Below the pieces are notes generated by a model that searched no databases, was not told the DNA's origin, and saw only the letters and a list, made by a program, of their open reading frames with translations. From assembly GCA_009761415.1 (NCBI GenBank), contig QUOL01000014.1, positions 868,001 through 932,000 of the forward strand: a DNA stretch of 64,000 nucleotides, given 5' to 3'. Below are positions 2,123-46,186 of this stretch, one piece after another. The position numbers and the translations under genes were made by a program. The stretch comes from Sarcomyxa edulis. Lineage: Eukaryota > Basidiomycota > Agaricomycetes > Agaricales > Mycenaceae. Every line of letters begins with the position of its first letter. Within the stretch, counting starts at the first letter, position 1.

Positions 2123-3870
2123 TGTGATGAGGACTGCGGCGCTAGGAGTAGATGTGCTAGACTCCTAACTATAGTTCGCCTCTAGGGGGTAAGGTGACGT
2201 TTTCTCGGAGGGGATTTTACGTAGCGAGAAATCCTAATGCCCAGTGACTTGTGTTTGGATAATGTGTTCGTAAAACGGTGGTGAGGTGGGTATGAGATGA
2301 TGAGGTGTAAGGTAAGCTTCGGACTTGTAGGATTGTTCTCGGTAGGCCGTTTAGAGGCTTCGGACAGCTATAGGTTCGTTCTTGAAAAACCTACGAAGGC
2401 CTCGGATAGCTTTCGGAGAGCTGATCGATGCTTCGGACGGCTTATAAAACGTCTTCGGAGAGCTATCGAGGGCTTCGGACAGCTATAAGTTCGATCTTGG
2501 AGAACCTACGAGGGCCTCGGACAGCTTTTGGTGAGCTGACCGATGCTTTGTATAGCTATAAAACGTCTTCGGAGAGCTATCGAAGGTTTCGGACAGCTCT
2601 GAACTGATTTCGGAGAGCTTCGAGGGTTTCGGACAGCTATGGACTGATTTCGGAGAGCTTCCTTTGTTCCGGGAGTGGTACTGCCGACTGAATCAAGTCC
2701 TTTTTCTTTTGTTTTGACCGACTCCTGTAATCGTTCCTTGTCTCGGTTTCAGAAGTATGAGAAAGAGATAGAATTCCTATAGAGAGTAACTGGGTAGTTG
2801 GTCGATTCGGGTATGTTCCTCTGGTTCTCGTCCACACTGGTTCTATCTACCGTTCTCCATGTCCTATCCTACTTTATATATGAATTCCTTCCCTGTCCTT
2901 GCCTAATTCTTCACCCCGAGTGCCATCCCAAGGTCCCCGAGATCTCCAATGATGAAACAGATCCGGTATTGGTTTTGATGTGTCCGAACCTCGCTCAGTG
3001 TGAAAGGTTAGGGCCTGAGGTGTTCTCTGAAAGCGTTGCAAGGTGAATTTGTGAAGGGATGAAACATGTCCGAGTGAGCAGGATGATGGGGAGCTTCCGA
3101 TAGATTTTTCCAAGATGCGACGGCCAAAGTTGTCCGAGAAGAGTGAATTTGATGTGGGTTGCTAGGCGGAGACCTGTAGTGTCTTTGTTAGCGGGCGATA
3201 CCTCGCTTACAAGTGCTGTGTCATGTGATAAACACAGAGGGAAGAATATTCCGTAGCACCACTTGGTCAGGGTGGACGGAGGTCTTAACGAGGCGTCCAG
3301 ATGCATGGAAAGGTGTGAATTGAGATCACAATGTAAAGGGAATATGTCCGATTTGATAGGAAGAACAGCTCAGGGCAGCAAGCATCACGTTGGCGGTATG
3401 TCGACTGGTGGCAATGTTTTGTCGGTGAAGTATCTCTCGATGAGGTCTTCTAGAGGTGAAAGGGAACCTGCTGAAACGATTTGGGATCTGTCCGAAGGAT
3501 CTAGGGGGCTGCGGAGAGGTGATCGAGTACATTGGGCCTTCGGTCAGGTGAAACAACGATAGGGAATTGGGTTCTGGCGGTAGATTTCCTTCGGAGAAAT
3601 TGTTCGTGTGTGATTTCAAGTATTCCGAAACGTTCTGAGACGTGACCGAAGGCGGGTTAGCGTTTGGTGAGTGGATGAAGAGGCCGCTTTCGGGGAGAAA
3701 CCGTCAAGTAGCGGGTACTTGGTGTCTTTCAGTGTCCGGTCATTCGAAAAGTAAGTCGTTTGTGGTGATGCCACCAGTATCTCTGTAGTTAGCTATGTCT
3801 GAGGAGTCGCATAAGAGTAGGTTGTTGTATAGTTGTCGATTCCTTGGCTGGGGATGCTGGCATCCTCACA
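2123..3870 (-). repeat. Long terminal repeat, left copy (3' LTR if the element is on minus)
   Basis: 1748 bp, beginning TGTGATGAGG and ending CATCCTCACA, with 5-bp terminal inverted repeats TGTGA/TCACA. No difference from 12083-13830 was found. Small ORFs in either strand of the repeat are not convincing genes. A TATATAAAG on the minus strand (2872-2880) is a candidate U3 promoter. Plus-strand TATAAAA also occurs twice in the internal tandem repeats. Confidence 0.9.
2359..2660. repeat. Tandem array with TTCGGA(C/G)AGCT core in the left LTR
   Basis: Two ~115-bp units start at 2359 and 2474, followed by two ~40-bp units starting at 2588 and 2628. Each unit opens with TTCGGACAGCT, and variants of this 11-mer recur inside the units. 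Such clustered repeats in an LTR usually act as enhancer-like binding sites. The identical array is in the right LTR. Confidence 0.8.
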
Positions 3871-3879
3871 CTTCCTCCT
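3871..3879 (-). other. Candidate polypurine tract (minus strand)
   Basis: The plus strand reads CTTCCTCCT immediately after the LTR, which is AGGAGGAAG on the minus strand abutting the TGTGAGG start of the LTR in that orientation. This is where the second-strand primer of an LTR retrotransposon should lie. The right end shows no comparable purine run in plus orientation. Confidence 0.6.
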
Positions 3880-3977
3880 AACTTTTAAATATCGACCGTC
3901 CCCGGTCGATCATCCGGAGGGCAAACACAACAACGTGTCCACGACCAAAACAGGGCAAGGACGACCGGCCGAGGACC

Positions 3978-3984
3978 TATAAAT
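3978..3984 (+). promoter_or_regulatory. TATA box of cargo gene A
   Basis: TATAAAT lies ~50 bases before the ATG at 4030, matching the spacing seen for the other cargo genes. Confidence 0.6.
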
Positions 3985-4029
3985 CCCAAGGTTAAGACAG
4001 CCAGAGCTTTCCTGAAAGCAACAAGCCAA

Positions 4030-4968
4030 ATGGATCCCATAGCAAAAGAACTCTTCTTTACGCGCTGCCTCGATCTAGACGGGATAGATGGCGATATTAC
4101 GATGGCAACTTTCCTCGGATACCTGCGTAACAATATCCGTCCCATGGTTCACCTAGTTGTTAGCTGCATTTTTCAGGATGCAGTGGCGGACGTTCTCCTT
4201 CCGGAGTTCTCGAGTCACGGTGTATACACGTTGAGAAAGCACGTTAAAATCTTGTGCCAGCACATGGTGAGTGCGTGTGCGCCTTTCAGGGGGTCCGTGC
4301 TAATTGCGAAGGTCAAGGTATTCATGCTCAGACTTAGATGGGTACTGAAGGGGAGGTGCATGGACGATACCACGGAGCCGTTTCCCAAGGAAGCAGTGAC
4401 CGCCGTTTACCAGGTGCAGCGGTGCGTCCACGTCGTAGGGTTTTCCGGGGATCAGGACGAGGACGAGGCACATAAGATCGACGTTATCTTGTACTTCATA
4501 GAAGAATATGCCCGCCGATCGACATTCGGCGTCGCTTTCGATTACATCGAGGCGGACCCGCGTGGTCGGTTCCATGCGCATGCCGTGTTGAAGAAGCATC
4601 CATACAGCGGTCCCAGGGTACATCGAGATGGTACGATTAGTACGGACAGGGGCAACAGCCTCGAGGGGGAAGAAAATTCGGCTAACAACGAAGACGAAGG
4701 CATATCCGTCATAAGTATTGCAACGGACGACGGGGACGAAGAAATGGAGGTGGCCGAGGTAGAAAGGGCCTTGTCCGGTAAGAATTCTGACACTTTAGCG
4801 GTGCGGCAACGAGCTGATCGGAGAGGTACAGTCCAGCCACTCGCGAGCTTGGCAACACACGGGGCATTTCGCCTGCTTTTGGAGACGTTATCCGAAGAGG
4901 AGAGGAACGGTTTGATTGGCGGGGCGGCGATTATCGAACAGGGACTAAACAATTTGTCGGGGGCATGA
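4030..4968 (+). CDS. Cargo protein A, founder-like member of the A-E family
   Basis: The frame is open for 312 codons. A 51-nt intron (4267-4317, GTGAGT donor, CTAAT branch-like site, AAG acceptor) is inferred at the same phase-0 position as in B-E and gives 295 residues. Because 51 is a multiple of three and contains no stop, the retained form is also open. The N-terminal half has the family motif FLGYLRNNIRPM; the second half has FPKEA at the place of IPSEV, IPSEM and VPSEA in relatives. The last ~100 residues are acidic, Ser/Asn-rich and unique to this member. No known family is recognised. It is the first gene downstream of the left LTR and has its own TATA box. Confidence 0.75.
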   Translation: MDPIAKELFFTRCLDLDGIDGDITMATFLGYLRNNIRPMVHLVVSCIFQDAVADVLLPEFSSHGVYTLRKHVKILCQHMVSACAPFRGSVLIAKVKVFMLRLRWVLKGRCMDDTTEPFPKEAVTAVYQVQRCVHVVGFSGDQDEDEAHKIDVILYFIEEYARRSTFGVAFDYIEADPRGRFHAHAVLKKHPYSGPRVHRDGTISTDRGNSLEGEENSANNEDEGISVISIATDDGDEEMEVAEVERALSGKNSDTLAVRQRADRRGTVQPLASLATHGAFRLLLETLSEEERNGLIGGAAIIEQGLNNLSGA

Positions 4969-5028
4969 GGCGGCAAGAAGAGGGAAGGGTTCGGAGAGGT
5001 GATCGAGGGCATGCAGTCATCATGTACA

Positions 5029-5034
5029 TATAAA
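5029..5034 (+). promoter_or_regulatory. TATA box of cargo gene B
   Basis: TATAAA lies 30 bases before the ATG at 5064. Confidence 0.6.
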
Positions 5035-5063
5035 CGACGAGTCCTTTCGTGTTGAAAATCGAA

Positions 5064-5653
5064 ATGCCTGCCCGCAGTATGCAAATGGCTCGCGAGAGGC
5101 TCTGCGACTACTTCATGACGCTGAACGTCCCATCCTTTATTCGACCCGTGTTCTATCCGCACGAGGGCTTCGATGGATTCTTTCGCAAACGCCTTCGTAT
5201 GATGTTCGGTGTCATCCAGGCGACGCTTCCCCATAGGGTGACAGCATTTCCCGATGACACCGATAGCGTTATCGGGCAATATACGCTGTCGAGGCGGCTT
5301 ATGCGGTTTTTCGTCGAGAACGTTGTACGGGCTTCCACCGTTTTTCAGCGGGGCAACGCAGAGATACTAAAAAAAAATATCCTTCTGCGCAGGAACTCAT
5401 CGTTGCATACCGTCAGCGGGCCAGGACCGATGCCAACGCCGCCGAATTTAAAATTCCTTCAGAGGTATCCCGTATGATGGAGTTCAGTCTTATCGTTTAT
5501 GACAAGGTCGGATTTCATGGGGACTGGGCCCTCAGCAGCGTCGGTCAGAGGAGGGAAATGCTTCAATCACTAAAAGACGAGGCCGACGTTAACGCTTCAT
5601 TGACTGGCGGGGCAAAGGAGTATCCCGAATTTGAGGACCTGGTGTTCTGGTAA
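5064..5653 (+). CDS. Cargo protein B, A-E family
   Basis: Two exons, 5064-5324 and 5393-5653, around a 68-nt GT-AG intron with an ACTAA-type branch site; both exons are 261 nt and the product is 173 aa. Unspliced, the frame ends soon after the intron, so splicing is needed. The N-terminal half carries GFDGFFRKRLRMM, matching GFTNFLRFRLRPMM of protein C. The second half carries IPSEV and ends near YPEF. An in-frame GTG lies upstream, but 5064 is the first ATG and sits at the expected distance from the TATA box. Function unknown; mostly hydrophobic and basic helices, no signal peptide seen. Confidence 0.75.
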
Positions 5654-6713
5654 GCAGGCGCCGTCGGTCTCGTTCTTTGGGCCCCTCAGAGGGATACTAA
5701 TAGTCGGAAATTCGCATTTTAGAGCGCACGCGTAGCGGGGAAGCTTTCCTGGATGTGACCGAGGGGTTTTGTCGTCGTTGGTACCTTAACGGATAAACAC
5801 TCCTTTCGCGTGCCGCGTTTGAATATCTTGTAGTTTATGGAATGCACTGTCGGTTCGGAGGGCAACGACGGTCTCGGGCAGCCTCCCAACCTCCTTTATA
5901 AAGGGTACCGATGTCCGATGATTCCACCCGCTGTGCGCAGACATTTGAATCGCGGACAGTTCGTAACTCCGTCAGCGGCTCTTGATGAGAGGAAAGTTCA
6001 GAGGGAAGGCGAGTGAGATGAGAACGGAGAGAGGTTATTAATGCTTTCAGAGCTTTTCTCCTTTACAATTTCGCTATATCGCTCAGTGGCCTGGTCATCA
6101 TTTCGTTCTTCCGTAGCCTCGCCTTTATACGATGTCAGGATGATCTTCTCGTCCCGTTCAACAACTCGGCCGGCGCAGGATGCTGTTCTCTTCTTCAAGA
6201 TGATGCAGTTGCATTTCTACAGCGCTCAAAGCCGACAGCCGTCAAGCGCCAGTGGCTTCATGAAGTCATGGCCGTTTAGATCGAGGTGGCTTGCGTCCTG
6301 ATCGTCGTTGTTCTTACGGCGCAGTTGAGACTGTTCGGGTTAATACGCGTGCGAGTGATGTGACCGCGATCTTGCGAAATCTTTGCGAAGGAACAAGACA
6401 CGGCGAAGTGTATCAGGTGAGGCAAGGACCTGCGACAATAGTCGAAAAGATGGTCCCAGGGTAGCGGCGCGACGTGGCGGCCAGCTCGTGTTCTTTTGCA
6501 TGTGGCATTCGCAATCGTTCCGTGAGCATCTATACCGAAGAACATGCGTCTTTACTGCTTCTGATAAGGCACGGTCCGGAAAATCCAACGGTTAACAGTG
6601 GCTGCACGGAGTCCGTTCGGACACCTCTTATCGGTCCGAGACGTCAGTCCTAAGTCCGATGAGGTATAAAGAACGCCAGCTGGCGCAGGATAGCCATCGT
6701 TATTCCAGCCAAA
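5654..6713 (+). pseudogene. Gap in the cargo array, possibly a decayed sixth A-E copy
   Basis: This 1.06-kb gap between genes B and C has a TATAAA at 5897-5902 but no intact gene. One frame around 6040-6285 translates to a hydrophobic segment with an FRAFLL...FFRSL pattern faintly like the first exon of the family, followed by a stop, a possible 51-nt intron and a second short open stretch. The resemblance is weak and could be chance. The spacing of the array makes a lost copy plausible. Nothing else is seen here. Confidence 0.3.
6665..6670 (+). promoter_or_regulatory. TATA box of cargo gene C
   Basis: TATAAA lies ~44 bases before the ATG at 6714. Confidence 0.6.
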
Positions 6714-7309
6714 ATGTCGCATGTCGTTAGTTCATCTTTTACTCAAGCTCTCCGAGACGAGTTTTTGTCGTACGCTCAACCTCCTGAAGTTCTTGCCGGG
6801 GATTTCGCTCCTACCGAGGGCTTTACAAATTTCCTTCGGTTCCGCCTCCGCCCTATGATGGAGATCGTCGAGCGGGGGTACGCGGCTTATCTTATAACGA
6901 GTTCCCCGAGAGACACCGTTGAACCAATCATATGGAGCGAGACGAAAGGCTGGTTCCGCATCGTGTTGGATCATTTGGTAGGCGTCCGTGGTTCACTCGG
7001 TGAGCTTCGGAGTGTTAACCTTACGTCTTCTAGGATGCCATTCTACGGTTTAGGGATAGGGTGACGGCAATTGGCCGAGGAGACGAGGCCGTGGTTCCGT
7101 CAGAAGCGTTGCGCCTCGCAAGCATGGTGCAGCTATTCCTTATCCATCACGGAGTTGAGCTCGGGTACGATGAGGATGTACTTGTGAAGAGGAAGGATTT
7201 AACGAAGGAGTTCCTTTGGTCTATCGTCCCTGTAATGCTCCGAGAGGCAGTTGCCGTGGAATTTCCGGAGTTCGTGATACGGTTGGCAGGGGAGGGTACG
7301 GGCAAGTAG
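6714..7309 (+). CDS. Cargo protein C, A-E family
   Basis: Exons 6714-6977 and 7034-7309 flank a 56-nt intron (GTAGGC...TTCTAG, phase 0), giving 179 aa. The N-terminal half contains GFTNFLRFRLRPMM, the clearest form of the family motif; exon 2 contains VPSEA and later FPEF. The joined frame aligns along its length with B and, less closely, with A, D and E, including the intron position. No catalytic or metal-binding residues are evident. Function is unknown. The compact, mostly helical pattern would suit a structural or adaptor role, but that is only a guess. Confidence 0.78.
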
Positions 7310-7347
7310 AAGGGGTGTCCGATAGCTGAATAGCGCGATATTTTTAG

Positions 7348-7353
7348 TATAAA
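7348..7353 (+). promoter_or_regulatory. TATA box of cargo gene D
   Basis: TATAAA lies ~42 bases before the ATG at 7395. Confidence 0.6.
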
Positions 7354-7394
7354 GAGGGTGAATCAATTCCTCCGTACAGGTCACCGCAGAGCCC

Positions 7395-8113
7395 ATGAAA
7401 ATTATGGAACCCCTACACCAAGTCCTTTTGAACACTCTTGCCCAAGAGGCAGCAACGTTCGATATCCTTGATCGTGACGGAATGATTCACTATCTCAGGT
7501 GCCTCCTGCGCCCCGCTGTCGGCCTCGTTGCCGATTTTATATTCCGTGAACTCGGGCCCGATGGCTACTTCGTAGCTTTAACTGGTCGCGAGAGGGTTCC
7601 CTACTACTGCAATGCGCAAATCGTGTTGCTCCTCGCGGTACGTTGGTCTAAACTTGACCCTTAGCGATCTCATTGTTTAACGGGTTTTCACTTGATCGGT
7701 AACAGGTCCATTTCCACAGCCAGTGGCAGGAGCTGAACAAGCAGGACAGGCGTTTATACATGATTCCGTCCGAGATGAATAGAACGATTAGCCATTTGCG
7801 CTTGATTTGTCGGGCTGTCCGAATTCAGCCAGCAAGCCCCATTCATTGGGAGGTCGAAGCCGTCCGAGCTCTTACCGAGCTTAGCATACGCGCCCTGGCG
7901 GCTTACGCGTCGGCTGAAGATGCCTTCGATTGGCCGGAGTACGAGAAGCCCGGGGATGCCGCGTTGGAAAGCGCGATGACCAGATCGATCCGTCTCGATC
8001 TCCTCGAAAGGGTCGTACCTAAGCGCGTTGTCGTAGTCGAGGGGGAGTCCGAAGGTGCAGGATATAGCGACGCGGAGGACTGGCCAGGGTCAGAGGAGGA
8101 AACGACGGAGTAA
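7395..8113 (+). CDS. Cargo protein D, A-E family
   Basis: Exons 7395-7637 and 7706-8113 surround a 68-nt intron (GTACGT...AACAG, phase 0); product 216 aa. The family motif appears as MIHYLRCLLRPA. Exon 2 opens with VHFHSQW and contains IPSEM, then WPEY at the place of FPEF/YPEF. The last ~40 residues are acidic and Ser/Gly-rich. Without splicing the frame stops within the intron. Function unknown. Confidence 0.77.
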
Positions 8114-8157
8114 AGTAACGCTCCCAGAATCATATGCCACTTATTGTAGTCTGCATA

Positions 8158-8163
8158 TATAAA
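8158..8163 (+). promoter_or_regulatory. TATA box of cargo gene E
   Basis: TATAAA lies ~52 bases before the ATG at 8215. Confidence 0.6.
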
Positions 8164-8214
8164 CCTCCCCGAATCGTTTGCTCTGATCCTTAAGTCAGTA
8201 AAGTTCCATCAACG

Positions 8215-9150
8215 ATGTCCTTTATTCTCCGTTTGTCTGCAAATCGCTTTCCCGAAAATCCCCAGGATCCCGACCTCGAAAATGAGAGGTCTCCGACCAC
8301 CATCTGGTCTCGGTCAATTCGTAGCCTCCTAGGCATCGTTCATCTCTCCGTAAATGGGAGGTGTCCGACGGACGTTCCTCTCGAGGAAAGGCTCTGGGTC
8401 AGGACCCTCCTCACCCGGATCGTCAATTACGTAGTAAGCGGCTCGCTTGTTTTTCCTTCATCGTTCCTCTTTCAACATCGTCCGTCCAGCATCAAGCTAT
8501 GAAGCTCCGAGCCTCCGAAGCCATTAAATCAGGTTCTTGGGATACCATTCCAATTCCCGCTCAAGCCACCACTACCGTCGCCATGCTCGAGTTCTTTCTG
8601 AAGAACTTTGGTTTCGAGGGGGACTACGTTGCGGTCAACGTTAGGAACGTTGGGTATCTTTTATCGTCGGTGAAGAGCGAGATGGTTGCCCAGGCGCGTT
8701 TTACTTATTTCTTGGTTCTCATCCTTCGCTGATTTATTTCTTTTCGTCCTTTTCTAGGTCGGATACGTCGGAACCGCCCTGGATTTTGATGGTTTTGAGT
8801 CATCCGATGCGTACAACGTGTACGGCGTGCTTCCCGAAATGAAGCAGCAGCAAGTCAACGACTTGCTCAGATCGCGGGCGGCTTTCGTTCCCAATCCTAT
8901 TCTTCCTGCTCCTCAATATCCTCTTGTCCCCTTCGTCGCGAGGTTTCCCGTGAAAGAGGGCTTTGAAGAGGTCCGTCTTCATGGAGACGTTCCCGATCCT
9001 CGTCTCGGAGGCCTCCACCAAGTTCATTTCGGCCCTGGAACTTTCGGACAGGTAGATCCTCGGAACGCTGCGACGCGTGGGAGAGGTCGCGGAGGGGCAA
9101 GGGCTAATCGTCGAGGAGCTGGAGCGGTACCTGATACTACCATTCTGTAG
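8215..9150 (+). CDS. Cargo protein E, A-E family with RGG-type tail
   Basis: Exon 1 is 8215-8433, followed by a 56-nt intron (GTAAGC...GTCCAG) at the family's phase-0 position. Exon 2 starts at 8490. A second intron ends at 8757; its donor is either GC (CAG|GCGCGT, intron 8694-8757) or a weak GT (8685), and both keep frame. Exon 3 is 8758-9150. The GC-AG model gives 271 aa. The family motif is weak here (IWSRSIRSLLGI), and PSEA is replaced by IPAQA. The C-terminal ~30 residues are Arg/Gly-rich (RGRGRGGAR), as in RNA-binding proteins or gag nucleocapsids. An AATAAA polyadenylation-like signal follows at ~9187. Function unknown. Confidence 0.7.
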
Positions 9151-9971
9151 ACCGTCCGATGAGTTTCCGATTCCTTGTTTCTGTAAAATAAATGCCTGAT
9201 AACAGGCGCATAATTCGTTCATAATTTTGCATAGTGTGAGACCCAGCGTCTCGGTCTCCTTGTAAATCTGTAAAACGTCGTGAGTTGCATACTTTTATCA
9301 TATCAGCGCATAATTGGGTTCGGTCTGCGTCAGTAGATCCGCTGGCCAGCCAGATCTACCGTCTCCGAACCCCGCATAGTCGTTCTTCTTCCAATTTCTT
9401 TCGATCGTTTGTCGTCCGTGGTCTTTTCGCAGTATTTCGTCACTGTGTACAGGAGAGCCGTCGCTCTCTATCCGTTATGGGTTTATGACTCCCATGGCGC
9501 AAACTTATCCGTTTCGTGCTTGCTTTTAATCGTTCGTTCTTCTTATTGACTTCCTGGGTACCGTTTTTTAACCCTTAACTTTTTATGTTCGATGACTTCC
9601 ATTATCTCATTCCCAATCGTGCTTGTTCGCCTGGATATGCTTGCTCCGACAATTTTTATCTCCATGATCGTCGTTCTCCGGTCTCGATTTTCTTCGTTTT
9701 TCGATGTGATCGAGCCCGATCTCCTTTAGGCTGTCCGATCCTTCGGTTACCAGTGGATGTTTGGCATCGGCTTCCCCTTTGTTTGGCGCCGCCGCGAGAT
9801 GCGAAGCGCGATTAGATCGACACGTGCCTGGAGATACCCGAAATGAGATCGCCGAGGTATGGAATCACTTTCGAACTTTATCGATCAAATCTCTCTCGCC
9901 CTCTGCCCACCACTTTTCCAATACCAGACGCGCCTCGATCACCTCTCCCATCTCTTCTGAAGATCATCCCA
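9151..9971 (+). other. Intergenic spacer between cargo genes E and F
   Basis: It holds the 3' end of gene E and the presumed promoter of gene F. No TATA box was found near the F start; the last ~100 bases are pyrimidine-rich, as in many fungal core promoters. Short ORFs here (for example 9285-9488 and 9585-9815) show no family resemblance. Confidence 0.5.
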
Positions 9972-11737
9972 ATGTCTTTGCCATCGTCTGCGCCCCTAGC
10001 CGCTCCCGATTTCACGTTCTCCGAGGCTTTCAACCTTGCGCTATCTGGTGGTTTACCTACGACAAGGGTTCCAACGCAGGTTATGGCTTCTATGAAATCG
10101 TCGCGAAGGATCCCTGGTTCGGGGTACGGTTTGATCGAAGAACTCCGACCAGTAACCGCTAGAAGTCGCGAGGAGCTCCATTCAGCGTGTGTGGCATTCC
10201 TACACATCGGGTGGACGCCTCCTTTCCCCCCAGCTTTCGACAATTTCCCTACCCTTGACGACGATATTATTGGCTTCGTCCGCCAGCTCGTTGTCGTCCC
10301 CGATTTCTTCCTGGAGGCCCTCGAGTATAATCTCCCCGTTCGTCGCACTCCCCTCTTCCTTCCTGCTAAGGAAGAGACTCCTGCTCCGTGGTACGGTAGC
10401 TTTGAAAAGATACTGGGGACATCCGAGTTTCCCAACTTGTCCGAGAACGAGATCGACGAGCTTGGTAAGTCAGTTCTTACTTTCCCTTCCTCCTTTAATT
10501 GATTCCGATTCATTCTTTTCAGCCGAAGATACCGATTCCGGTCCTAGCGGCGTCGCTATAGTTCACACGACAGATCCACCCCCAGCGATTATCGGTGCCT
10601 CGAGCGTCGTCAATCCCGAAAGTTCGGAGGGAGACGTCCCGCCCCCCGAGGTAAGAGTCAAGTATCCTCGTGGAGTTAAACGCGCAAGGGAAGAATTCGA
10701 CACGGACATCGTCCGTCCTCGTATCAAACCCGTAGTCCTTCCTCCCTCGTCGATTCCGAGTCGCGCGGTTCCTATCAAAAAACCCCCAGGTATTTCTTCG
10801 AAAAGAGCAGGTCGTATTCTGAAGGCCCAGCAGCCTTATCTTATCCGTCACCTGGTACGTTTTTCTCTTCCGTTCTTCCTTCTAGTACTAAAATACCCTG
10901 CTTTATAGGACTGGCGTTGCAGCAGATGTATCAAGCACAACGTCACCTGTAACGGGCATCGTAGTCACGCTTGCGATAGGTGCTTTGCTCGGAGGACCGG
11001 CTGTGATATTCACGAGGACGAAGGTCTCCTCGATCTTTCCCGTGCCATCGAACTGGGAGAAATCGTTATCGCGCCAAAGAAAGTTGCTCCCGTATCCGAA
11101 ACCTCCGACAGTCTTCCTGGTCCTTCGACCATCGATGAGCGGCGAGAAATGCCTTCTAGAGACAAGGGAAAGGGGAAGGCTCGCGAGGTTTCACCGGTCG
11201 GCGTCGAGGAATCCCAGTTCGCACCTTTAAAAATTCGTGGTGCGTTTTCTTTTCTATTCAAGGATCGCATTCTTGAATCTATCGTTCTTTGTTTTATTTG
11301 CAGTACCCAGGCCCGTCGGTGGTTATTATGCCGCGGAGCCAGCACCCAGTAGTACTTTGTCTGAAGTGCCGATCTCTTTCGGCGAGATGCGTATGCCCGA
11401 AACTCGCAAGATCGTTCCTCCGCAAGAACCCGCAAGTCGATCCGAAGGTCTCGATAATACGGGTAACATCGAACCATCCAGCACTTCCGAACCCTCCTCG
11501 ATCAATCCCTCGTTCGCCTCCCAGGGTCAACAGGTCACAGGTCGTCGAAGGAAATGGAAGTCGATGGTTGACAGTTTGAGAGTCAGGATACTTGACGGTG
11601 CTGCTGGTGTCGAGGTCTTTGGTAAGCTTGCCCCAGTCATCCGTGATCAGTTGTCGGGTATTATCGATGCCGCAATATCGCAAGTCGAAGATCAATACGG
11701 GTTTATATTTGAGGAGGAGCAGGCCGATTCCACGTAA
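9972..11737 (+). CDS. Cargo protein F with Zn(II)2Cys6-type cluster
   Basis: Four exons (9972-10464, 10523-10854, 10909-11239, 11304-11737) join in frame to 529 aa; all three introns are GT-AG, 54-64 nt. The start is the ATG of MSLPSSAPL; an in-frame ATG at 9843 would add 43 residues. Residues ~279-307 have six Cys spaced C-x2-C-x6-C-x7-C-x2-C-x6-C, the fungal binuclear zinc cluster spacing, followed by a basic stretch. Flanking parts are Pro/Ser-rich with a KRAREE patch that may be a nuclear signal. The C-terminal ~80 residues look helical. A DNA- or RNA-binding role is inferred from the cluster; similar clusters occur in regulators and in Agaricomycete transposon-related ORFs. Confidence 0.75.
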
Positions 11738-12060
11738 AATAGTAGTTCGATTTTGGAAGTAATATTTTCGTTTCCTATGTAATTTTTATAGGAGAGTAAT
11801 CCACGATTTGTTTCTTTTTATTTTGGACACCAAGAGACGTGTGTCTTGTTCTAATATAGTTGTCGGGAGTGGCGTCTTGTGGATAGGGGCGAGAAGTGAC
11901 TCTTTTCTGTGTGATGTCTATGTTTTGGAAGGGAGCGTCTAGGATGAGAATCAATCGAGATTTTATTGATGATTTGGACGGAGTGATTTCTTCGGAGGGG
12001 TCGTTTTATGGAGAATAGACGGATAATTGCGATGTTCGGTAAGCTTGGGGAGAAGCTTAC
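11738..12060. other. Spacer between cargo gene F and the primer-site region
   Basis: AT-rich 3' flank of gene F. Read on the minus strand it lies where a retroelement leader would be. No ORF of note. Confidence 0.5.
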
Positions 12061-12065
12061 TCCCC
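12039..12065 (-). other. Palindromic hairpin beside the candidate primer site
   Basis: GTAAGCTT and AAGCTTAC form an 8-bp perfect inverted repeat with a 6-base GGGGAG loop, followed by TCCCC that can pair with the loop. In minus orientation it sits directly downstream of the candidate primer site, where retroviral and retrotransposon RNAs carry dimerisation and packaging stem-loops. Role inferred only. Confidence 0.45.
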
Positions 12066-12080
12066 TCGCGGTGGGCTCCA
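12061..12080 (-). other. Candidate primer binding site (minus strand)
   Basis: In minus orientation the bases two nucleotides inside the LTR end read TGGAGCCCACCGCGAGG. A TGG at this position pairs with the CCA of a tRNA primer. The matching tRNA could not be assigned by eye. Confidence 0.5.
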
Positions 12081-12082
12081 GT

Positions 12083-13830
12083 TGTGATGAGGACTGCGGC
12101 GCTAGGAGTAGATGTGCTAGACTCCTAACTATAGTTCGCCTCTAGGGGGTAAGGTGACGTTTTCTCGGAGGGGATTTTACGTAGCGAGAAATCCTAATGC
12201 CCAGTGACTTGTGTTTGGATAATGTGTTCGTAAAACGGTGGTGAGGTGGGTATGAGATGATGAGGTGTAAGGTAAGCTTCGGACTTGTAGGATTGTTCTC
12301 GGTAGGCCGTTTAGAGGCTTCGGACAGCTATAGGTTCGTTCTTGAAAAACCTACGAAGGCCTCGGATAGCTTTCGGAGAGCTGATCGATGCTTCGGACGG
12401 CTTATAAAACGTCTTCGGAGAGCTATCGAGGGCTTCGGACAGCTATAAGTTCGATCTTGGAGAACCTACGAGGGCCTCGGACAGCTTTTGGTGAGCTGAC
12501 CGATGCTTTGTATAGCTATAAAACGTCTTCGGAGAGCTATCGAAGGTTTCGGACAGCTCTGAACTGATTTCGGAGAGCTTCGAGGGTTTCGGACAGCTAT
12601 GGACTGATTTCGGAGAGCTTCCTTTGTTCCGGGAGTGGTACTGCCGACTGAATCAAGTCCTTTTTCTTTTGTTTTGACCGACTCCTGTAATCGTTCCTTG
12701 TCTCGGTTTCAGAAGTATGAGAAAGAGATAGAATTCCTATAGAGAGTAACTGGGTAGTTGGTCGATTCGGGTATGTTCCTCTGGTTCTCGTCCACACTGG
12801 TTCTATCTACCGTTCTCCATGTCCTATCCTACTTTATATATGAATTCCTTCCCTGTCCTTGCCTAATTCTTCACCCCGAGTGCCATCCCAAGGTCCCCGA
12901 GATCTCCAATGATGAAACAGATCCGGTATTGGTTTTGATGTGTCCGAACCTCGCTCAGTGTGAAAGGTTAGGGCCTGAGGTGTTCTCTGAAAGCGTTGCA
13001 AGGTGAATTTGTGAAGGGATGAAACATGTCCGAGTGAGCAGGATGATGGGGAGCTTCCGATAGATTTTTCCAAGATGCGACGGCCAAAGTTGTCCGAGAA
13101 GAGTGAATTTGATGTGGGTTGCTAGGCGGAGACCTGTAGTGTCTTTGTTAGCGGGCGATACCTCGCTTACAAGTGCTGTGTCATGTGATAAACACAGAGG
13201 GAAGAATATTCCGTAGCACCACTTGGTCAGGGTGGACGGAGGTCTTAACGAGGCGTCCAGATGCATGGAAAGGTGTGAATTGAGATCACAATGTAAAGGG
13301 AATATGTCCGATTTGATAGGAAGAACAGCTCAGGGCAGCAAGCATCACGTTGGCGGTATGTCGACTGGTGGCAATGTTTTGTCGGTGAAGTATCTCTCGA
13401 TGAGGTCTTCTAGAGGTGAAAGGGAACCTGCTGAAACGATTTGGGATCTGTCCGAAGGATCTAGGGGGCTGCGGAGAGGTGATCGAGTACATTGGGCCTT
13501 CGGTCAGGTGAAACAACGATAGGGAATTGGGTTCTGGCGGTAGATTTCCTTCGGAGAAATTGTTCGTGTGTGATTTCAAGTATTCCGAAACGTTCTGAGA
13601 CGTGACCGAAGGCGGGTTAGCGTTTGGTGAGTGGATGAAGAGGCCGCTTTCGGGGAGAAACCGTCAAGTAGCGGGTACTTGGTGTCTTTCAGTGTCCGGT
13701 CATTCGAAAAGTAAGTCGTTTGTGGTGATGCCACCAGTATCTCTGTAGTTAGCTATGTCTGAGGAGTCGCATAAGAGTAGGTTGTTGTATAGTTGTCGAT
13801 TCCTTGGCTGGGGATGCTGGCATCCTCACA
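12083..13830 (-). repeat. Long terminal repeat, right copy (5' LTR if the element is on minus)
   Basis: Identical by inspection to 2123-3870, offset by exactly 9960 bases, including the TTCGGA(C/G)AGCT array (12319-12620) and the minus-strand TATATAAAG. Identity across 1748 bp points to a very recent insertion, unless gene conversion or assembly collapse is responsible. Confidence 0.9.
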
Positions 13831-13834
13831 ACGC
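13831..13834. repeat. Target-site duplication ACGC, right copy
   Basis: It follows the CA end of the right LTR directly and matches 2119-2122. Confidence 0.8.
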
Positions 13835-15903
13835 CATCGTGATATACTGGGGAGTCAATTGGCATTGATTTTGTGGGTCCGTTGCCCGAGTCGAAGAATC
13901 GGGATGGAGTTTTCAACTCTATTGCGGTGATAATCGATTTGAAAACGGCGATGGTGCACTTGATACCCAGCCGAACAAACTATAATGCAAGACAAATTGC
14001 TGAGCTCATGTTCGACGAGGTGTATAAATTGCATGGATTACCTAAATCCATTGTGAGTGATCGTGATGTGTTGTTTACTAGCACTTTTTGGAGTACGCTG
14101 CATAGGCTGGTGGGAACGAAGCTTCATATGTCGAGTTCGTACCATCCGCAGTCTGATGGCTCAACGGAGCGAGCAAATCGGACTATGACACAGATGCTGC
14201 GTCAGTGTATCAACGAAAAACAGAAAAACTGGGTCGAAAAATTACCTGGTATTGAATTTGCAATGAACTCGGCCAGGTCGGCGAGTACAAGTTATGCGCC
14301 GTTTTTTCTGAATACTGGGTCCATGCCGCGGCCGATGATTTGGGACTCTCCGAGAGTAGGGGAATATCCTGGAGTGGCTGCGTTTGCAAGTCGGCGGAAG
14401 TTGGCATTGATGGCTGCCCATGACAGCATTATTGACGCTCGAGTCAAACAGACGCGTGCGGCTAACCGTCGACGTCAGCCGAGTCCGTTCAGCGAGGGAG
14501 ACTTGGTGTACGTTACCACGAAGAATATCTCATTTCCGAAGGGCTTGGCAAGGAAAATGATCCCTAAGTACATGGGACCCTATAAAATAGCCAAGAATTT
14601 TGGCAATAACTCATTTGAAGTCGAGTTGCCTAAACACCTGAAGAAAAGAGGTGTTTGGAACGTCTTTCATGCAGAGAAATTGAGGGTACATACCCCAAAT
14701 GATGATCGACTCTTCCCCGGGCGCCTAGACAGTCAGCTCGGGAACGTTGGAGATGTTGAAGGCGAATGGGCCGTGGATCGAATTCTATCCCATGTTGGTA
14801 GGAGAACGGAGGCCGTCTTCGAGATGAAATGGAAGTCAGGAGACATAACATGGATGAGATATTACGATATTACTCACCTGGATGCGCTCGAGGCGTACTA
14901 TGTGCTTATGGGGGTCTCGAGCATAGCTGGGCTTCCTGAGGGAACGGGAAATTTGCCGGTGGATGTACGGATGTCCCTGGGAGGCGTTGAGCTGCGGGAC
15001 GAATCGAGGCCTATAAAGCAAGGGAGAAGACGTCAGGACAAAGGATTTCTTCCCCCTTCAGCACCGAGGGAACTCGAGCTTCTGTTACATTCCATCATCC
15101 ACGACTCTATCAAATACTCTTCTCCGATCCCTCGACGCGCACAGCCGCACCATCGTACTCCATATCCTCGATCTTCCCCTCACTCAGCAAATAGAATGCA
15201 CGTACCCGCCAATATCTATCTGGATCGAACTACACGTGACAAGTTCGAGCTGTACGACGATGTCAGTACATGGGGTACCTATACTATTCATCCTGGTCAG
15301 ATGCGGCAGTTCATCGACTATGATATGCTTTTGCGTCAGCACAAGACGCCCGACTACCAGCCGTTAGGCTATGCAGAGTTCATAGCTATCTATAACTCCG
15401 ATCCCGATTCCAAGACACAGTTTGCGGAGTTTGACAAACTTACCATGGATGTTCACGCCTATGGTGCCGCTGTCAACCGTCTCGAATTCAAGGTCGGTGA
15501 CCGTGACTTTGGGGCGGCACCAACATCGTTGCAGTTGGCACCTGGGGAACGCGTGGTCGGTGCTCAGGAGGACGCGTCGCTTCGATACTCGATGATTCGT
15601 AACATCCAGACGTTGGAGAGGGACGAGGCGTTCAAAACGAAGAAAATCAACCAGCGCGTTGAAGAACGAGCAGCGAAGGACGCCATGACGGTGAGTCTGA
15701 AGAGGAAAGCACGCAAGGAGGCGCGCAAGGAGGCGCGTTTAGCTCGGGCGGCAAACGACGAGTTATTTGGGCCTGACGTGGTGGAGGATGCGATTGCGCA
15801 TGCCGATGCAATGGTAGACGATGCGGATGGGATTGCAGATGATGCACAGGACATGGATGCAGAGGGGGAGGCTGACGAAGAGGCAGCAGTACCGGTGGAG
15901 TGA
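13832..15903 (+). pseudogene. Ty3/gypsy integrase and chromo-like tail, right half of the relic
   Basis: The first codons (RHRDILG) continue the RNase H frame of 2003-2122. At ~13850 the frame jumps into integrase (SIGIDFVGPLP), so the rest of RNase H, the H2C2 finger and the start of integrase are deleted. From ~13862 the frame is open to a TGA at 15901-15903. It shows the integrase core (SDRDVLFTS, then the SYHPQSDGSTERANR block with the catalytic Glu), the C-terminal GPY-type region (KYMGPYKIAKN) and a chromo-like segment ending near YVLMGV. A further ~330 residues follow, including a basic K/R stretch and an acidic end. The element cannot make a functional polyprotein but could retain a translatable integrase fragment. 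Confidence 0.88.
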
Positions 15904-23856: not shown

Positions 23857-25555
23857 CTAACGTGCACAAGTGCCCGCCTGGATATGCCTGAGCAGGGCAT
23901 CCGGCCTAGAGAAGGAATTATTGCAGCCCCAAGTCGAAATTCCCGTTACTAGTAGCCGGTATTCAGGATGTCTCTCTAGCACCTCATCAAGTTGCTCCGA
24001 GCAGACCAAGGCCGGCTTTCCACCGCTCTGTGCAAGGTAGAATGCTTTGGAATGCGCGCTCCAATGTCGCCTGTTATCCGTGTGCCTTCCAGCCGTCACC
24101 CGGTAAGTGCAGCCTGGGATGACACACGGAGCTTTACCTTTCGCATCCCAAACGATTGGGGGGTGCCTACTATCGTAATCCTTGACGAGGTCGTAGTTGA
24201 CTTGTCTGTGACGATTACGGGATGGGTTGGGGACTGACTGTGTCGAGGCGGAAGCCTTTTTGGCAGCTCTGGCGCGTTTCGGGGCTCGACCAGATGTGGA
24301 TTGTTGGCCAGACGATTCAGATTTGGTGGAAGAGCGAGAGGACGAGGAAGAGCCGGTGGACGAGGAAGAGGAGCCGGATGGAGAGGGCGCGGATGAGGGG
24401 GTGGGAGAATCGTAAGACGAGAGGGTGGGAGCAGGTGAATGGGAAGAAGAGCCAGAAGACGAGGTGGAACCGCGAGACGTCTTAACGCGACGGCCTCGAG
24501 ATGTGGCCGTGTTCTTCCGCTTCCCGGGGCCCGATGATTTCTCTGGGACGAACTCGTCGTCGCCTGCATCTTCCTCGTCCGATCCCTCCAACTCGGCGTA
24601 GTTCTTGCGCGTGGTCCTGGCAGTGGGTGGTAGATAGGGCGTGGCTGTCGATCGAGGAGAGGTGGTGGATCGGCGGGGAAGTGGTGCGATGCGACGGTTT
24701 TGGGGTGCCTGTACGGTCTTGACGGTACGCGCGGGGGTTGGGGGATTGGCAGCCCTGCTGGGCCCGGGTGCGAAGGAGGCGTCGTCCTCTTCGGAGCTGC
24801 TTTCGTCTTCCTCGGATCTATTGGAGGTAAATAATGGATCAGTTCGCGGCTACACATGAAGGAAATAATTGAAGAACATACTCGGAGACGATGTCAGAAT
24901 GGGCGTCGACATAGTTGTCCGACCTGTGCAAAGAATGTCAGAATACAATATGTGGCATTGATGATTGGATGAGACGTACGAAGACTCGGGGTCAGACATC
25001 TCGCTGTCGGTATCGTCATCATAGAGACGAGATTCTTCTGAGTGACCCTTGGTGTTATAACTATCCAAAATGATTACGAAGTCAGAATAGAACATAGAAT
25101 GTGAAAAAAAAATCGACAACGCACCCAGGGTCAAGCTCCATGCTGCAGTCATAAAACTCATCCTGATCCTGATCCTCACTTCCAGAAGAACTGTCCGAAT
25201 CATCACTATTATCATCGTCGGAGCTAATGTCCTCTTCAGAGTCGGAGGAGTCGCAGTGGACGTGTTCGCGACGCTGAGGAGCTGACGGCGCGGAAATACG
25301 CGAAGGAGAGGGGTCTTCGGAGGTGAAGTCCTTGGAATATGGGAGAAGCCACATCATGTCGTGGTCTACTTTTTCGAAGTAGGGTACGAGATGAAGAAGT
25401 TCTTTGGGGATCTGGTTTAGAGTTTGTGTAGGAATTTTGAAGGTAGATGATGTGAAAGTATAGGAGGGAGAAGTTACATCAGAGATGCCCTCGAGGTATG
25501 GCAAGAGTAAAGGGAGTTTATCGAGGATATGTTTGGGGAATTGGAAGATAGACAT
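23857..25555 (-). CDS. Lineage-specific C2H2-like protein, copy ZF1
   Basis: Four exons (25555-25125, 25060-24980, 24923-24882, 24817-23857) join to 504 aa. The N-terminal MSIFQFPKHILD block and a PYFEKVDHDMMWLLPYSKD segment are shared with ZF2. An acidic Asp/Ser stretch, then a KNYAELEGSDEED motif and a Ser-rich basic region lead into a C-terminal domain with CVIPGC...H-x3-H and a WGCNNSFSRPDALLRH...C block. Exons 2 and 3 (81 and 42 nt) have the same lengths as in ZF2. Probable nucleic-acid-binding protein of unknown target. Confidence 0.87.
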
Positions 25556-27732
25556 CTTGATGAGGGCGATGGTAGAAAGAAAATATTTCTGGGGAGAAAT
25601 AGAGAGAGATGGCCATCCCTTATATACCTTTCTACGTTTTGCTAGCACGAGGTACAGCCCACTAGACGTCCCAACTGCGAAGAGTCCAACCGTTGAACGA
25701 GATTTCCAAATTAGGGAATCAGAGATGGGATCGACCCAAGGAAGCAATTTTCGGTGGCTACCGATCGATCAGAACGAAACGGGGTAATCGCCCGACGCGT
25801 CATTTTTTTGTCTCTTTTGCCATTTTGGGCGGGCCACCACCCAATGCCCAGCGTATGTGCCGCTCAGCCGTGTGAAGATCTGTATATCTGGGCCCAGTGG
25901 AACGGGTCTTGCCGATATCGCAGACTATCCCGATAATTATGGCGTTCGATCAGCACATAAGCAACATGCTACGAACGCTTTGGCTATGAAATTATGGTCA
26001 AACGCTGAGGCCAGGCCGCAGTAATAATGATCATGCACCTTCCAAAAGAGCTCTATAACCGTCCAGTCCACTCGATGTGTCGGGACAGGATACGTGATGA
26101 CTGGACTACTCGACTTTAATCGAGACGTCCAAGTATCGCTAACGCGCTAAGATCAGCATCCGTTCCCAAAAATAGGCTGGACAATAGCTGTGCCGGTGCC
26201 GCATCTCTTGATAAGAGTCAAGAGGCGATGCGCCTCGGGCCAAGCCGAAGACCAGCTGATAACCTCGATCATAGAATCTCACGGGGGTCCTGGCACACTC
26301 CTGGGACCGGGTTGAATAATTACCAGAGACGGGTCCCTGCGTTTTTGGCTGTGATGATTAGAGGTCCAGCAACTTGAAGCTTGAAGCTTGAAGGCGCTAA
26401 GTTGGTAGAGTCGACCAGTAAATGTAAATTTCAGGTATGATGATGATATGTCTACTTTCTTCTAGTTCTTTGTTCGTCGAGAGTGCGTCTATTTGCCGTC
26501 TATGTCACTGGCATATCGAGATAACCACTTTGATGAGAAGAAATGCTTACCATAGGTATTGCTGCAATCGATGTCCCCACATATGTATACCACGATATAT
26601 ATCATATCTCCATCGCTGAGCACGACGACCATCAAGCTGGATCGTAACGATAGGCATACCTTGAACGTTGGACAGTCAATCAACCTTCCTCGTGTCAGCT
26701 CGGACCGTAATCTGATATTTGTTCTAGTTCTTCATGCTATGTTTGTTCTCCACTGACCGCCCAGTCTTTCAAAGAGCTAGCCAAGTCCATCCGACGAAAA
26801 TTTTGAGGATGAGTGGTAGTCGGCTCGGTCGGGATCACTAGCTCCTTCGTCCGGGTTGGTGGTCTGGCGAAGGCTATGAGCTGGAGAGTTGAAAGAATTG
26901 AAGATAGGACAGAGATGGGCTGTAAGTTGAATGAGACTGATTGAAAGAGACTGGAGTCGGAGTCGGACACGAGGATTGAGATACCTATATTTATCCGGTC
27001 ACTCTTTGGTCAGTTTGACTCCAGTCGGAATCAACACTAGTTTTGTTCGACGTAACCACCCCCATAGCTCTCTCTGTCTCCGAACTCAGCCATGATTTCT
27101 GCTTTTTCGTCTATGATGTAGCCTCCCACCCTGCGCTCAACTACACATACGGACTCGGATGGCAGCATGATCACCAACAATCTATCGATGTCGTGCAGTA
27201 CTGTTCTCGAGCCATCCTGGACGCTTCATAGCTCATAGAGATCTTACTGGAACCCATCATGGTGTTTTCTCATTTACTGGTCTGAATTGGCTCCGAACAT
27301 GAAGGTCAGTCAGTGTCACCACCTCCGATTATATGAGACCATTTTCTCGAATCCCATCCAGCACGCGTTACTCCCCGAAATACCGGTCAGAGACTTGTTG
27401 TCACGACTTATAGTTAATAGTTCAGACCTCTTGCAGTTGTGAATTCTTGACAATGGATTTTCTGGCAGACTCAACATTGCTGTGGACTGAGGACTCGTCT
27501 AACCTCAAATATCACGGTCACGGGATGTAGTCGCGTCGCGATGCTCTGGCACTGTTTTTCTTTTTGCCACGCGACTTCCCCGTGGGCTCTGAGCTGACCG
27601 ACACGCACAAATCGGCCCAAACATCCCTTTTCCTTATAAGCCGCCAATCCTTCTGGTTTCCCCCTTTTCTCTCACTTTCAACATCGAACTCCCTCCCCCG
27701 CTCTTCATAATTCGTCGACGTGACTTCAAAGC
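25556..27732. other. Long intergenic stretch
   Basis: The first ~530 bases are ZF1 promoter DNA (TATA-like TATATA at ~25620) homologous to the ZF2 flank; homology ends near 26095. Beyond that only short ORFs are seen. A minus-strand ORF at 26737-26970 has an upstream AT-rich box but no clear start or family. A possible TATA (CCTTATAAGC) at ~27635 precedes the next candidate gene. Confidence 0.5.
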
Positions 27733-45320: not shown

Positions 45321-46186
45321 ATTCTACATATTCTGACCCATCTGAACAAGGTTAGCGCCTTGGAGTTCTACAGCTTACAACTATCACAGCCAGAGCGCAC
45401 GCCTATTCTCGGACACCGTTCCTTGGTAAATGTTAGAACCGTATTCTGGGCAACCTTCGAGAGACAACGACTTTGGATAGCAGCTGCTCATCGGCGTTCT
45501 CTGAGGTGCATCATCGCCCTCTCGTGTTTTTACTGACTCCCTCTTCGATAACTGTTCATCAGAATAGACGGGACCGGCCCTTGTACACTGTTCCCTATTT
45601 CAGAAGAGTGCTGGTCCCTAACAATGCCTTTGGATGGCTCGGAAGTCGACATGTCCGGTCATCCCTCCTTCGTCATCGTGTTCCGACCTATCCAATGGAC
45701 TGGCCAGTTATAGAGCTCTCTTTTCGATGTCACGAAGGTGCATGATCAATATTACTGCGGCCTGGCCTCAGCGCTTGACCAAATTTCACAGCCAAAGCGG
45801 TTGTAGCATGTTGTTTATGTGCTGACTGAACGTCAAAATAACCAGGATGGTCTGCGATATCGGCAAGCCCGTCTCACCGGGCCCAATCACAACAGATCTT
45901 CACACGGGTGAGCGGAACATAGGCTGGGCATGGGGCGGTCTCCCGCCCAAAATGGCAAGGCAAGAGCTTTTGATCGATCGGTGTTCCCTATACGGTAATT
46001 GTTATTTGGAAATTCGCTGCTTGGACGTTCAACGCTTGGACCCTTCGATTTTGACGCTTCATGATACCATAGGGTGTACCTCGCGCTATCAACAAAACGG
46101 GGCACCCTGGATAACATATAAAGGATGGCCGTGTCTTCCTGTTTTTCCCCCAGAAATATTCTCTTTCTACCATCGCCCTCATTAGC
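45321..46186. other. ZF2 promoter region, inverted copy of the ZF1 flank
   Basis: From ~45690 on this matches, in reverse complement, the ZF1 upstream flank (25570-26095). A TATAAA at ~46115 lies ~70 bases before the ZF2 ATG. Confidence 0.65.

Follow-up and report, generated by a model that had tools for sequence, protein, structure and literature searches.

A recent, probably non-autonomous Ty3/Gypsy-type retrotransposon copy carrying an antisense cassette of six intron-bearing genes in Sarcomyxa edulis

General structure and orientation of the element

The window analysed here, a stretch of 64,000 nucleotides from contig QUOL01000014.1 of the Sarcomyxa edulis assembly GCA_009761415.1 (positions 868,001 to 932,000, forward strand), contains a long terminal repeat (LTR) element at 2123-13830 whose interior of 8212 bp carries six genes, A, B, D, E, F and G, and neither gag nor pol. 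The two LTRs (2123-3870 and 12083-13830) are 1748 bp each, are identical (0 mismatches), have TG...CA ends and are bordered by the target-site duplication ACGC on the left (2119-2122) and on the right (13831-13834). An earlier sequence-only reading of the window had described such repeats, ends and duplication, an interior of 8.2 kb with at least six intron-bearing genes, no polymerase or integrase frame, and a recent movement. All of this was borne out: there are six gene models with nine introns, the 0 of 1748 LTR differences indicate a young insertion, and tblastn with the gag and pol open reading frames (ORFs) of the family found nothing inside the element. The best pol match in the window (13978-14616) belongs to an older Ty3 relic outside the element.

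The LTR ends give TG...CA whichever strand is read, and it is the primer binding site (PBS) and the polypurine tract (PPT) that orient the element. The PBS, TGGAGCCCACCGCGAGGG (12063-12080, minus strand), sits 2 nt inside the interior beside the right-hand LTR and can pair over 18 nt with the 3' end of tRNA-Lys(CTT), CCA included. The tRNA tail pattern matching the PBS occurs perfectly at 6 places in the genome, two of which were read with ARAGORN; one was named tRNA-Lys(CTT), only with introns allowed, and the other, its 5' end cut off, was uncalled. The PPT, AGGAGGAAG (3871-3879, minus-strand reading), adjoins the left-hand LTR directly ahead of its TGTG. Judged by these two motifs, which fit no other orientation, the element runs on the minus strand: 12083-13830 is the 5' LTR, 2123-3870 is the 3' LTR, and the leader of the genomic RNA extends from the PBS to the 3' end of G (11738-12062, minus strand), where it aligns with the leaders of long elements described below. 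All six genes, which are read on the plus strand, are therefore antisense to the genomic RNA.

LTRs, a short target-site duplication, a PBS for a host tRNA and a PPT agree with a Ty3/Gypsy-type element. Starship-type carriers have a captain tyrosine recombinase and no LTRs; the LTR, PBS and PPT found here do not agree with Starship or DNA-transposon cargo, and no recombinase family was found among the proteins scanned with Pfam. Large retrotransposon derivatives (LARDs) have a conserved but non-coding interior. The window element resembles them as a large LTR element without gag-pol and departs from them in that its interior holds six protein genes under selection.

Genes of the cassette

Gene models were checked in 12 of the 31 copies found in the genome, nine short (without gag-pol) and three long, and in nine copies for G. 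Gene A (295 aa; 4030-4968, exons 4030-4266 and 4318-4968, TATA at 3978) is intact in 11/12 copies, the exception (C34b) having one stop, and shows a ratio of nonsynonymous to synonymous divergence (dN/dS) of 0.10. A single-exon model of A, broken in 3/12 copies, was rejected since two of the breaks are frame-breaking indels lying within what is now a 51-nt intron. The four genes that follow are intact in 12/12 copies: B (173 aa; 5064-5653, exons 5064-5324 and 5393-5653, TATA at 5029; dN/dS 0.01), D (179 aa; 6714-7309, exons 6714-6977 and 7034-7309, TATA at 6665; dN/dS 0.08), E (216 aa; 7395-8113, exons 7395-7637 and 7706-8113, TATA at 7348; dN/dS 0.14) and F (271 aa; 8215-9150, exons 8215-8433, 8490-8693 and 8758-9150, TATA at 8156/8158; dN/dS 0.11). 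Mean synonymous divergence (dS) for A-F is 0.04-0.06. Gene G (529 aa; 9972-11737, exons 9972-10464, 10523-10854, 10909-11239 and 11304-11737) is intact in 9/9 short copies. Between B and D lies the position of a lost gene C (5897-6663, plus strand) with an orphan TATA at 5897; C was discarded as a working gene of the window, its frame not being conserved.

A, B, D and E have one intron each, F has two and G three. Splice sites are preserved and all nine introns are present in every copy examined. The second intron of F is of the GC-AG type with its GC donor in all 12 copies; a model of this intron starting at 8670 was replaced by the one at 8694, which gives F exon 2 the same length as in the F gene of a sister family (see below). 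A GC donor also occurs in one G intron each of the copies C38a and C34b. The separate TATA promoters proposed by the sequence-only reading were found for A, B, D, E and F, with TATAWA 35-59 bp upstream of the ATG, and not for G, which has no TATAWA within 120 bp upstream.

Among the cassette proteins, B and D are recognisable paralogues (E 3e-9), and A, E and F give weak matches to other members (E 0.01 or worse). A, B, D, E and F, as well as B, C, E and F of the sister family, each carry an intron in phase 0 that falls at residues 73-88, in one and the same part of the alignment, and precedes a common proline motif. Owing to this shared intron and motif, and to the match between B and D, genes A-F look like one tandemly duplicated family, with A, E and F placed there by layout more than by score. 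None of the small cassette proteins reached the cut-off of a Pfam family, and PF04195 (TRP28) had no match in the proteins scanned. No relatives of pol or of A were found in a viral contig collection. A (queried as 359 aa, with intron and upstream frame) had one match on a short contig, 78% identical over 70% of the query, and F had one on a short contig, 65% identical over 48% of F.

Short and long copies in the genome

A search of the genome (35.65 Mb, 40 contigs, here prefixed C) gave 40 scored LTR matches (among 110 candidates) with 97-100% identity, 21 scored interior matches (among 37) and 36 scored pol matches (among 175). All candidates were scored for B (77/77) and F (82/82), which yielded 31 B loci and 31 F loci of the window family, 29 of them in common. 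The element is thus far from single-copy. Ten of the interior matches cover the whole or nearly the whole interior, eight the first 5.7 kb only and three other parts. On C1 and C12, where the interior diverges after 5.6 kb, the strand opposite the cassette carries a pol ORF of 1280 and 1270 aa, respectively, and another ORF of 878 and 869 aa. Pfam places RNase H (534-663) and integrase H2C2 (838-893) in the pol of the long siblings and an aspartyl protease in the 878-aa ORF upstream of it, so that the Ty3/Gypsy order of RNase H before integrase is found in the long siblings and is absent from the window copy. Twelve open full-length pol copies with 98-100% identity, and one with a stop, are among the 36 scored. 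A further long copy, C34:15756, has kept an 824-aa gag ORF and lost most of pol.

Two types of G separate these classes. Compared with the first G exon of the window, type-1 exons are 83-96% identical and type-2 exons 38-40% in their N-terminal part, with no intermediates. Type-1 G at the usual 4.6 kb, without a pol of its own, is found at 12/31 B loci; the sole pol within 20 kb of these (C8:19321) is that of a neighbouring type-2 copy. Type-2 G is found at 15/31 B loci, of which 14 have pol within 20 kb (12 at ~6 kb and 2 at 13 kb). The leaders align among four short and three long copies, and the joint between G and leader is identical in the four short ones. Since the G lineage of the short copies differs from that of the long ones, the short copies are not fresh deletions of present long copies; by their sequences they look like an older lineage without its own engine that kept the accessory genes and has LTRs and A-F in common with the long copies. 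The proposal that the window holds a separate kind of cargo element is not supported, because the same cassette lies in long Ty3-type copies and in the sister family. The orientation, the gag-pol siblings and the variable island of G described below go beyond what that proposal contained.

Two composite structures were observed among the copies. A nested Ty3 element with an open ORF of 1650 aa, its tail chromodomain-like by eye, lies inside the C12 long copy (L010:734-5686). At C38:359989-379704 (L021-L022), an array of LTR, interior, LTR, part interior and LTR is bounded by a single ACGG duplication, has a middle LTR that diverges from the others, and likely arose from recombination between copies.

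Gene G and its variable island

The motif CX2CX6CX7CX2CX6C at residues 279-307 of G is Zn2Cys6-like: fungal transcription factors of the Zn2Cys6 class follow the pattern CX2CX6CX5-12CX2CX6-8C, whose spacing G shares, and the motif part shows a ratio of nonsynonymous to synonymous polymorphism (pN/pS) of 0.04-0.07. A protein search in which 7994 candidates were scored returned no relatives of G, and the predicted fold of G exon 1 alone has a mean predicted local distance difference test score of 38, too low to be informative.

For the eight other short copies, identity to the window is 94.5-99.8% over 3871-9470 (400-bp steps) and 73.5-97.2% from 9871 onward, in blocks. The closest copy shifts along G, that of the window being in turn C34a, C6b, C11 and C38a, and C34a and C5 are nearly identical along the whole gene. 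Among short copies, mean dN/dS of G is 0.14 at a mean dS of 0.63 (maximum 1.04), a silent divergence about 10 times that of the neighbouring genes; together with the shared joint between G and leader, these values fit a single loss of gag-pol after which selection acted for a long time. Three stretches of the protein are conserved: 81-160, 241-320 (the zinc region) and 481-520. Positive selection on G as a whole was rejected, pN/pS being 0.04-0.55 in 14/14 windows along the gene and never above 1. The long copies show the same local variation. C1 and C34 are 96-99% identical before G, 74-85% across G, 91.5% over the next 400 bp (adjoining the pol end) and 98-99% in gag, with dN/dS of 0.11 and 0.19 at dS 0.70-0.71 in two pieces of the G ORF. 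C1 and C12 are 75-84% identical across G, then 88%, then 94-98% in pol, and C12 and C34 (the latter without most of pol) carry one common G variant (97-99%). In these alignments the G island is a mosaic of hypervariable, old diversity within homogenised sequence.

This diversity could be neutral if G simply escapes homogenisation by template switching, a reading limited to G that leaves the interpretation of the element given below intact. The low pN/pS in every window along G, the plain exchange among copies, with nearest neighbours that switch, and the occurrence of one variant in two of the three long copies compared all agree with it. We give it a serious chance, somewhat short of even, because the identity dip between C1 and C34 is confined to G, and so local a dip calls for either an obstacle to exchange or selection preserving the variants. 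Balancing selection might preserve the diversity of G; a local bar to exchange might equally do so.

Selfish protection, with G and its partners acting as a poison-antidote or drive-like unit, would also explain both the deep mosaic lineages of G and the retention of the cassette in copies without gag-pol. It appears improbable, since dN/dS values of 0.14 (G) and 0.01 (B) are low for systems of this kind, Pfam detected no toxin or membrane family, and the zinc motif suggests nucleic-acid binding instead.

A sister family with the same cassette

Homologues of B with 33-39% identity occur at 8 further places and homologues of F at 9, and no third group of either exists among the candidates scored in this genome. 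An opposite-strand pol of the sister type, or a piece of it, lies within 15 kb of 4/8 sister B loci. Of the sister loci, one (L039) was read; it lies next to the pol at C12:989273, which is 79% identical to that of the window family. Its genes A, B, C, D, E and F, and one for a protein with a cysteine motif, follow the order of the window family; the C model is unbroken, and protein identities to the window are 37% for A (tblastn), 36% for B, 29% for D, 30% for E and 53% for F. B, C, E and F keep the phase-0 intron in its position. Because the order is the same in two families whose pol is 79% and whose proteins are 29-53% identical, the association is old, and by this comparison the cassette is an old accessory region of the retrotransposon.

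The age of the association bears on whether an LTR element captured a host gene cluster that now travels with it as cargo, possibly of use to the host. Introns and TATA boxes like those of host genes, and the lack of resemblance of any cassette gene to gag-pol, are what such a capture would leave. We nevertheless regard it as very improbable: within this genome, which the homologue searches covered, B and F homologues are confined to two element-type groups (2/8 sister B loci being without pol nearby), the cassette order is common to two families distant enough for the association to be old, and the small genes resemble each other as paralogues and not a mixed host cluster.

Target sites and recency

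Identical 4-bp duplications were found at 15/17 scorable end pairs, and 11/15 differ from ACGC, as expected if copies have moved to different sites. The 15 matched pairs include two solo LTRs; four rows pairing LTRs of different elements were left out, and the ends at C34:2441 and C22 were not scorable. The matched duplications follow the pattern [ACG]CG[CGT], symmetric by complement. CG occupies positions 2-3 in 15/15 matched pairs and in both mismatched ones; it makes up 6.1% of the dinucleotides of the window, and the chance of 15/15 is ~5e-19 if sites are independent. The family thus has a strong integration preference for CpG. LTR pairs differ at 0-2 of ~1748 positions in 8/9 elements and at 8 in the ninth (C38 outer).

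By eye, a number of copies lie near contig ends. Subtelomeric targeting was rejected as the cause: no telomere-repeat array was present at the two contig starts read (C34 and C8), and C8 starts inside a gag ORF, which makes breakage of the assembly likelier. Contigs C8, C11, C22 and C25 start or stop in or near these elements, and contig ends at such places are probably assembly breaks at long near-identical repeats. That the repeats or the absence of gag-pol are themselves products of mis-assembly is scarcely credible, for while these contig breaks and the unequal duplications of two end pairs (C3 and C11:652620-687332) speak for it, the 15 matching pairs are all CG-centred and the short copies have their own G type, which a collapse of long copies could not create.

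Around the window insertion, the right flank (13843-15903) consists of an older Ty3 element's integrase end, with SH3_Tf2-1 above the Pfam cut-off and rve below it, and the left flank has no pol by tblastn with another Ty3 ORF. No clean empty site was found among 18 matches to the joined flanks; only one, on C39 (79%, diverged), crosses the joint, by 11 bases, its remainder lying 0.9 kb off. Elsewhere in the window, an inverted pair of 1.2 kb (24391-25625 and 46116-47317, 76.5% identity) did not match the element in that comparison.

Relation to known elements

Plant Gypsy elements such as Retand, Grande (gene23) and RIRE2 have antisense additional ORFs between pol and the 3' LTR (PMC7264820, PMC11963269); those of Retand are thought to bind DNA, and Retand has non-autonomous members (PMC11963269). 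The plant elements are described as having one antisense ORF or a few, and the Retand text never uses the word 'intron' (PMC11963269). The cassette here has six genes (seven in the sister family): one is a hypervariable gene with a zinc motif, and the five or six others are likely tandem paralogues that share an intron. The sequence relation to the plant ORFs was compared through Pfam only. In fungi, Boty / BcGypsy1 of Botrytis cinerea is described as a Gypsy element with the antisense gene brtn (PMC7264820, PMC8365987); by that partial description the likeness is that of a fungal Gypsy element with an antisense gene, one there against six here. TelKA2n of bdelloid rotifers has a single env-like ORF3 and not an antisense gene set; its variation is reported to be largely neutral and comparable to that of gag and pol (PMC5408684), unlike that of G. 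A survey of fungal LTR elements mentions complex elements that gained many extra domains through multiple insertions, and the terms 'antisense' and 'intron' are absent from its accessible text (PMC3248453).

The sequence-only reading had called the form undescribed in fungi. This is too broad, as the single antisense gene of Boty is known; it stands for the multigene intron-bearing set, of which there was none among the literature matches listed, with subscription papers and preprints outside that scope. Antisense additional ORFs as such are already known, and on present sequence comparisons a multigene, intron-bearing set in a fungus would be the new form.

Proposed mechanism and role

Taken together, structure and movement make it very probable that the window element is a recent non-autonomous Ty3/Gypsy-type copy that carries an antisense cassette and moved in trans. 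The full layout would be LTR-PBS-gag-pol-(G F E D B A, reversed)-PPT-LTR, short copies having neither gag nor pol and retaining the LTRs, PBS, PPT and antisense cassette. The LTR promoter would produce a minus-strand genomic RNA, and the RNA of short elements would be packaged and copied by the Gag-Pol of long elements; such movement in trans, already suggested by the sequence-only reading, is likely. The cassette genes may be expressed as separate spliced mRNAs from the opposite strand, as their TATA motifs suggest. Their splice sites would be unreadable in the genomic RNA and their introns would survive retrotransposition, so that the antisense position of the genes would explain how nine introns outlasted it. 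Template switching between co-packaged RNAs could homogenise the LTRs and A-F and yet leave old variants of G in place.

Several points weigh against this interpretation. Its support comes entirely from sequence, from which we infer the movement in trans. Pfam gave no reverse transcriptase or integrase core in pol and no capsid in the gag ORF. Three B loci (C2:1484900, C8:22605 and C38:1735869), whose nearest type-1 G is at 7.9-16.8 kb, are of uncertain class, and the B locus C11:4648 is cut by a contig end. In the sister family, pol is found only at 22-31 kb from 2/8 B loci and is absent nearby from 2/8, and the top-scoring intron of D misses phase 0 by one base, the model ranked second fitting. 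G scores 13.1 bits against PF00172 (cut-off 21), matching just positions 20-31 of 39. A picture similar to that of a single loss would arise if long ancestors with type-1 G had lost gag-pol several times. Exchange with long copies could also, as a side effect, account for the purifying selection seen on A-F of the short copies, against which G alone argues.

As to what the cassette does, we consider the chances about even that its proteins are accessory nuclear factors that raise the expression or survival of the element, with G contacting DNA and setting specificity. Nuclear regulation or anti-silencing is the first choice of role, held with about the same balance of belief and doubt, and forms the weakest step of the mechanism. 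A possible model is offered by the VANDAL elements of Arabidopsis, which encode diversified anti-silencing proteins (VANC) acting on their own DNA (PMC5735166). They are plant DNA transposons, and no homology is claimed. More tentatively, the cassette may be an evolved accessory genome in which recognition variants of G, differing in escape from silencing or in telling own from other elements, are kept by balancing selection, the short lineage being long-lived and engine-less and paying its way through accessory proteins.

Antisense genes of LTR retrotransposons are known in plants and in Botrytis. In S. edulis, one genome holds an old, strongly selected set of such genes both with and without gag-pol, and the roles of accessory genes and engine thereby become separable and testable. 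The antisense layout would provide a simple rule for intron-bearing genes inside retroelements, and the G island is a natural series of variants that may serve to find what such proteins recognise.

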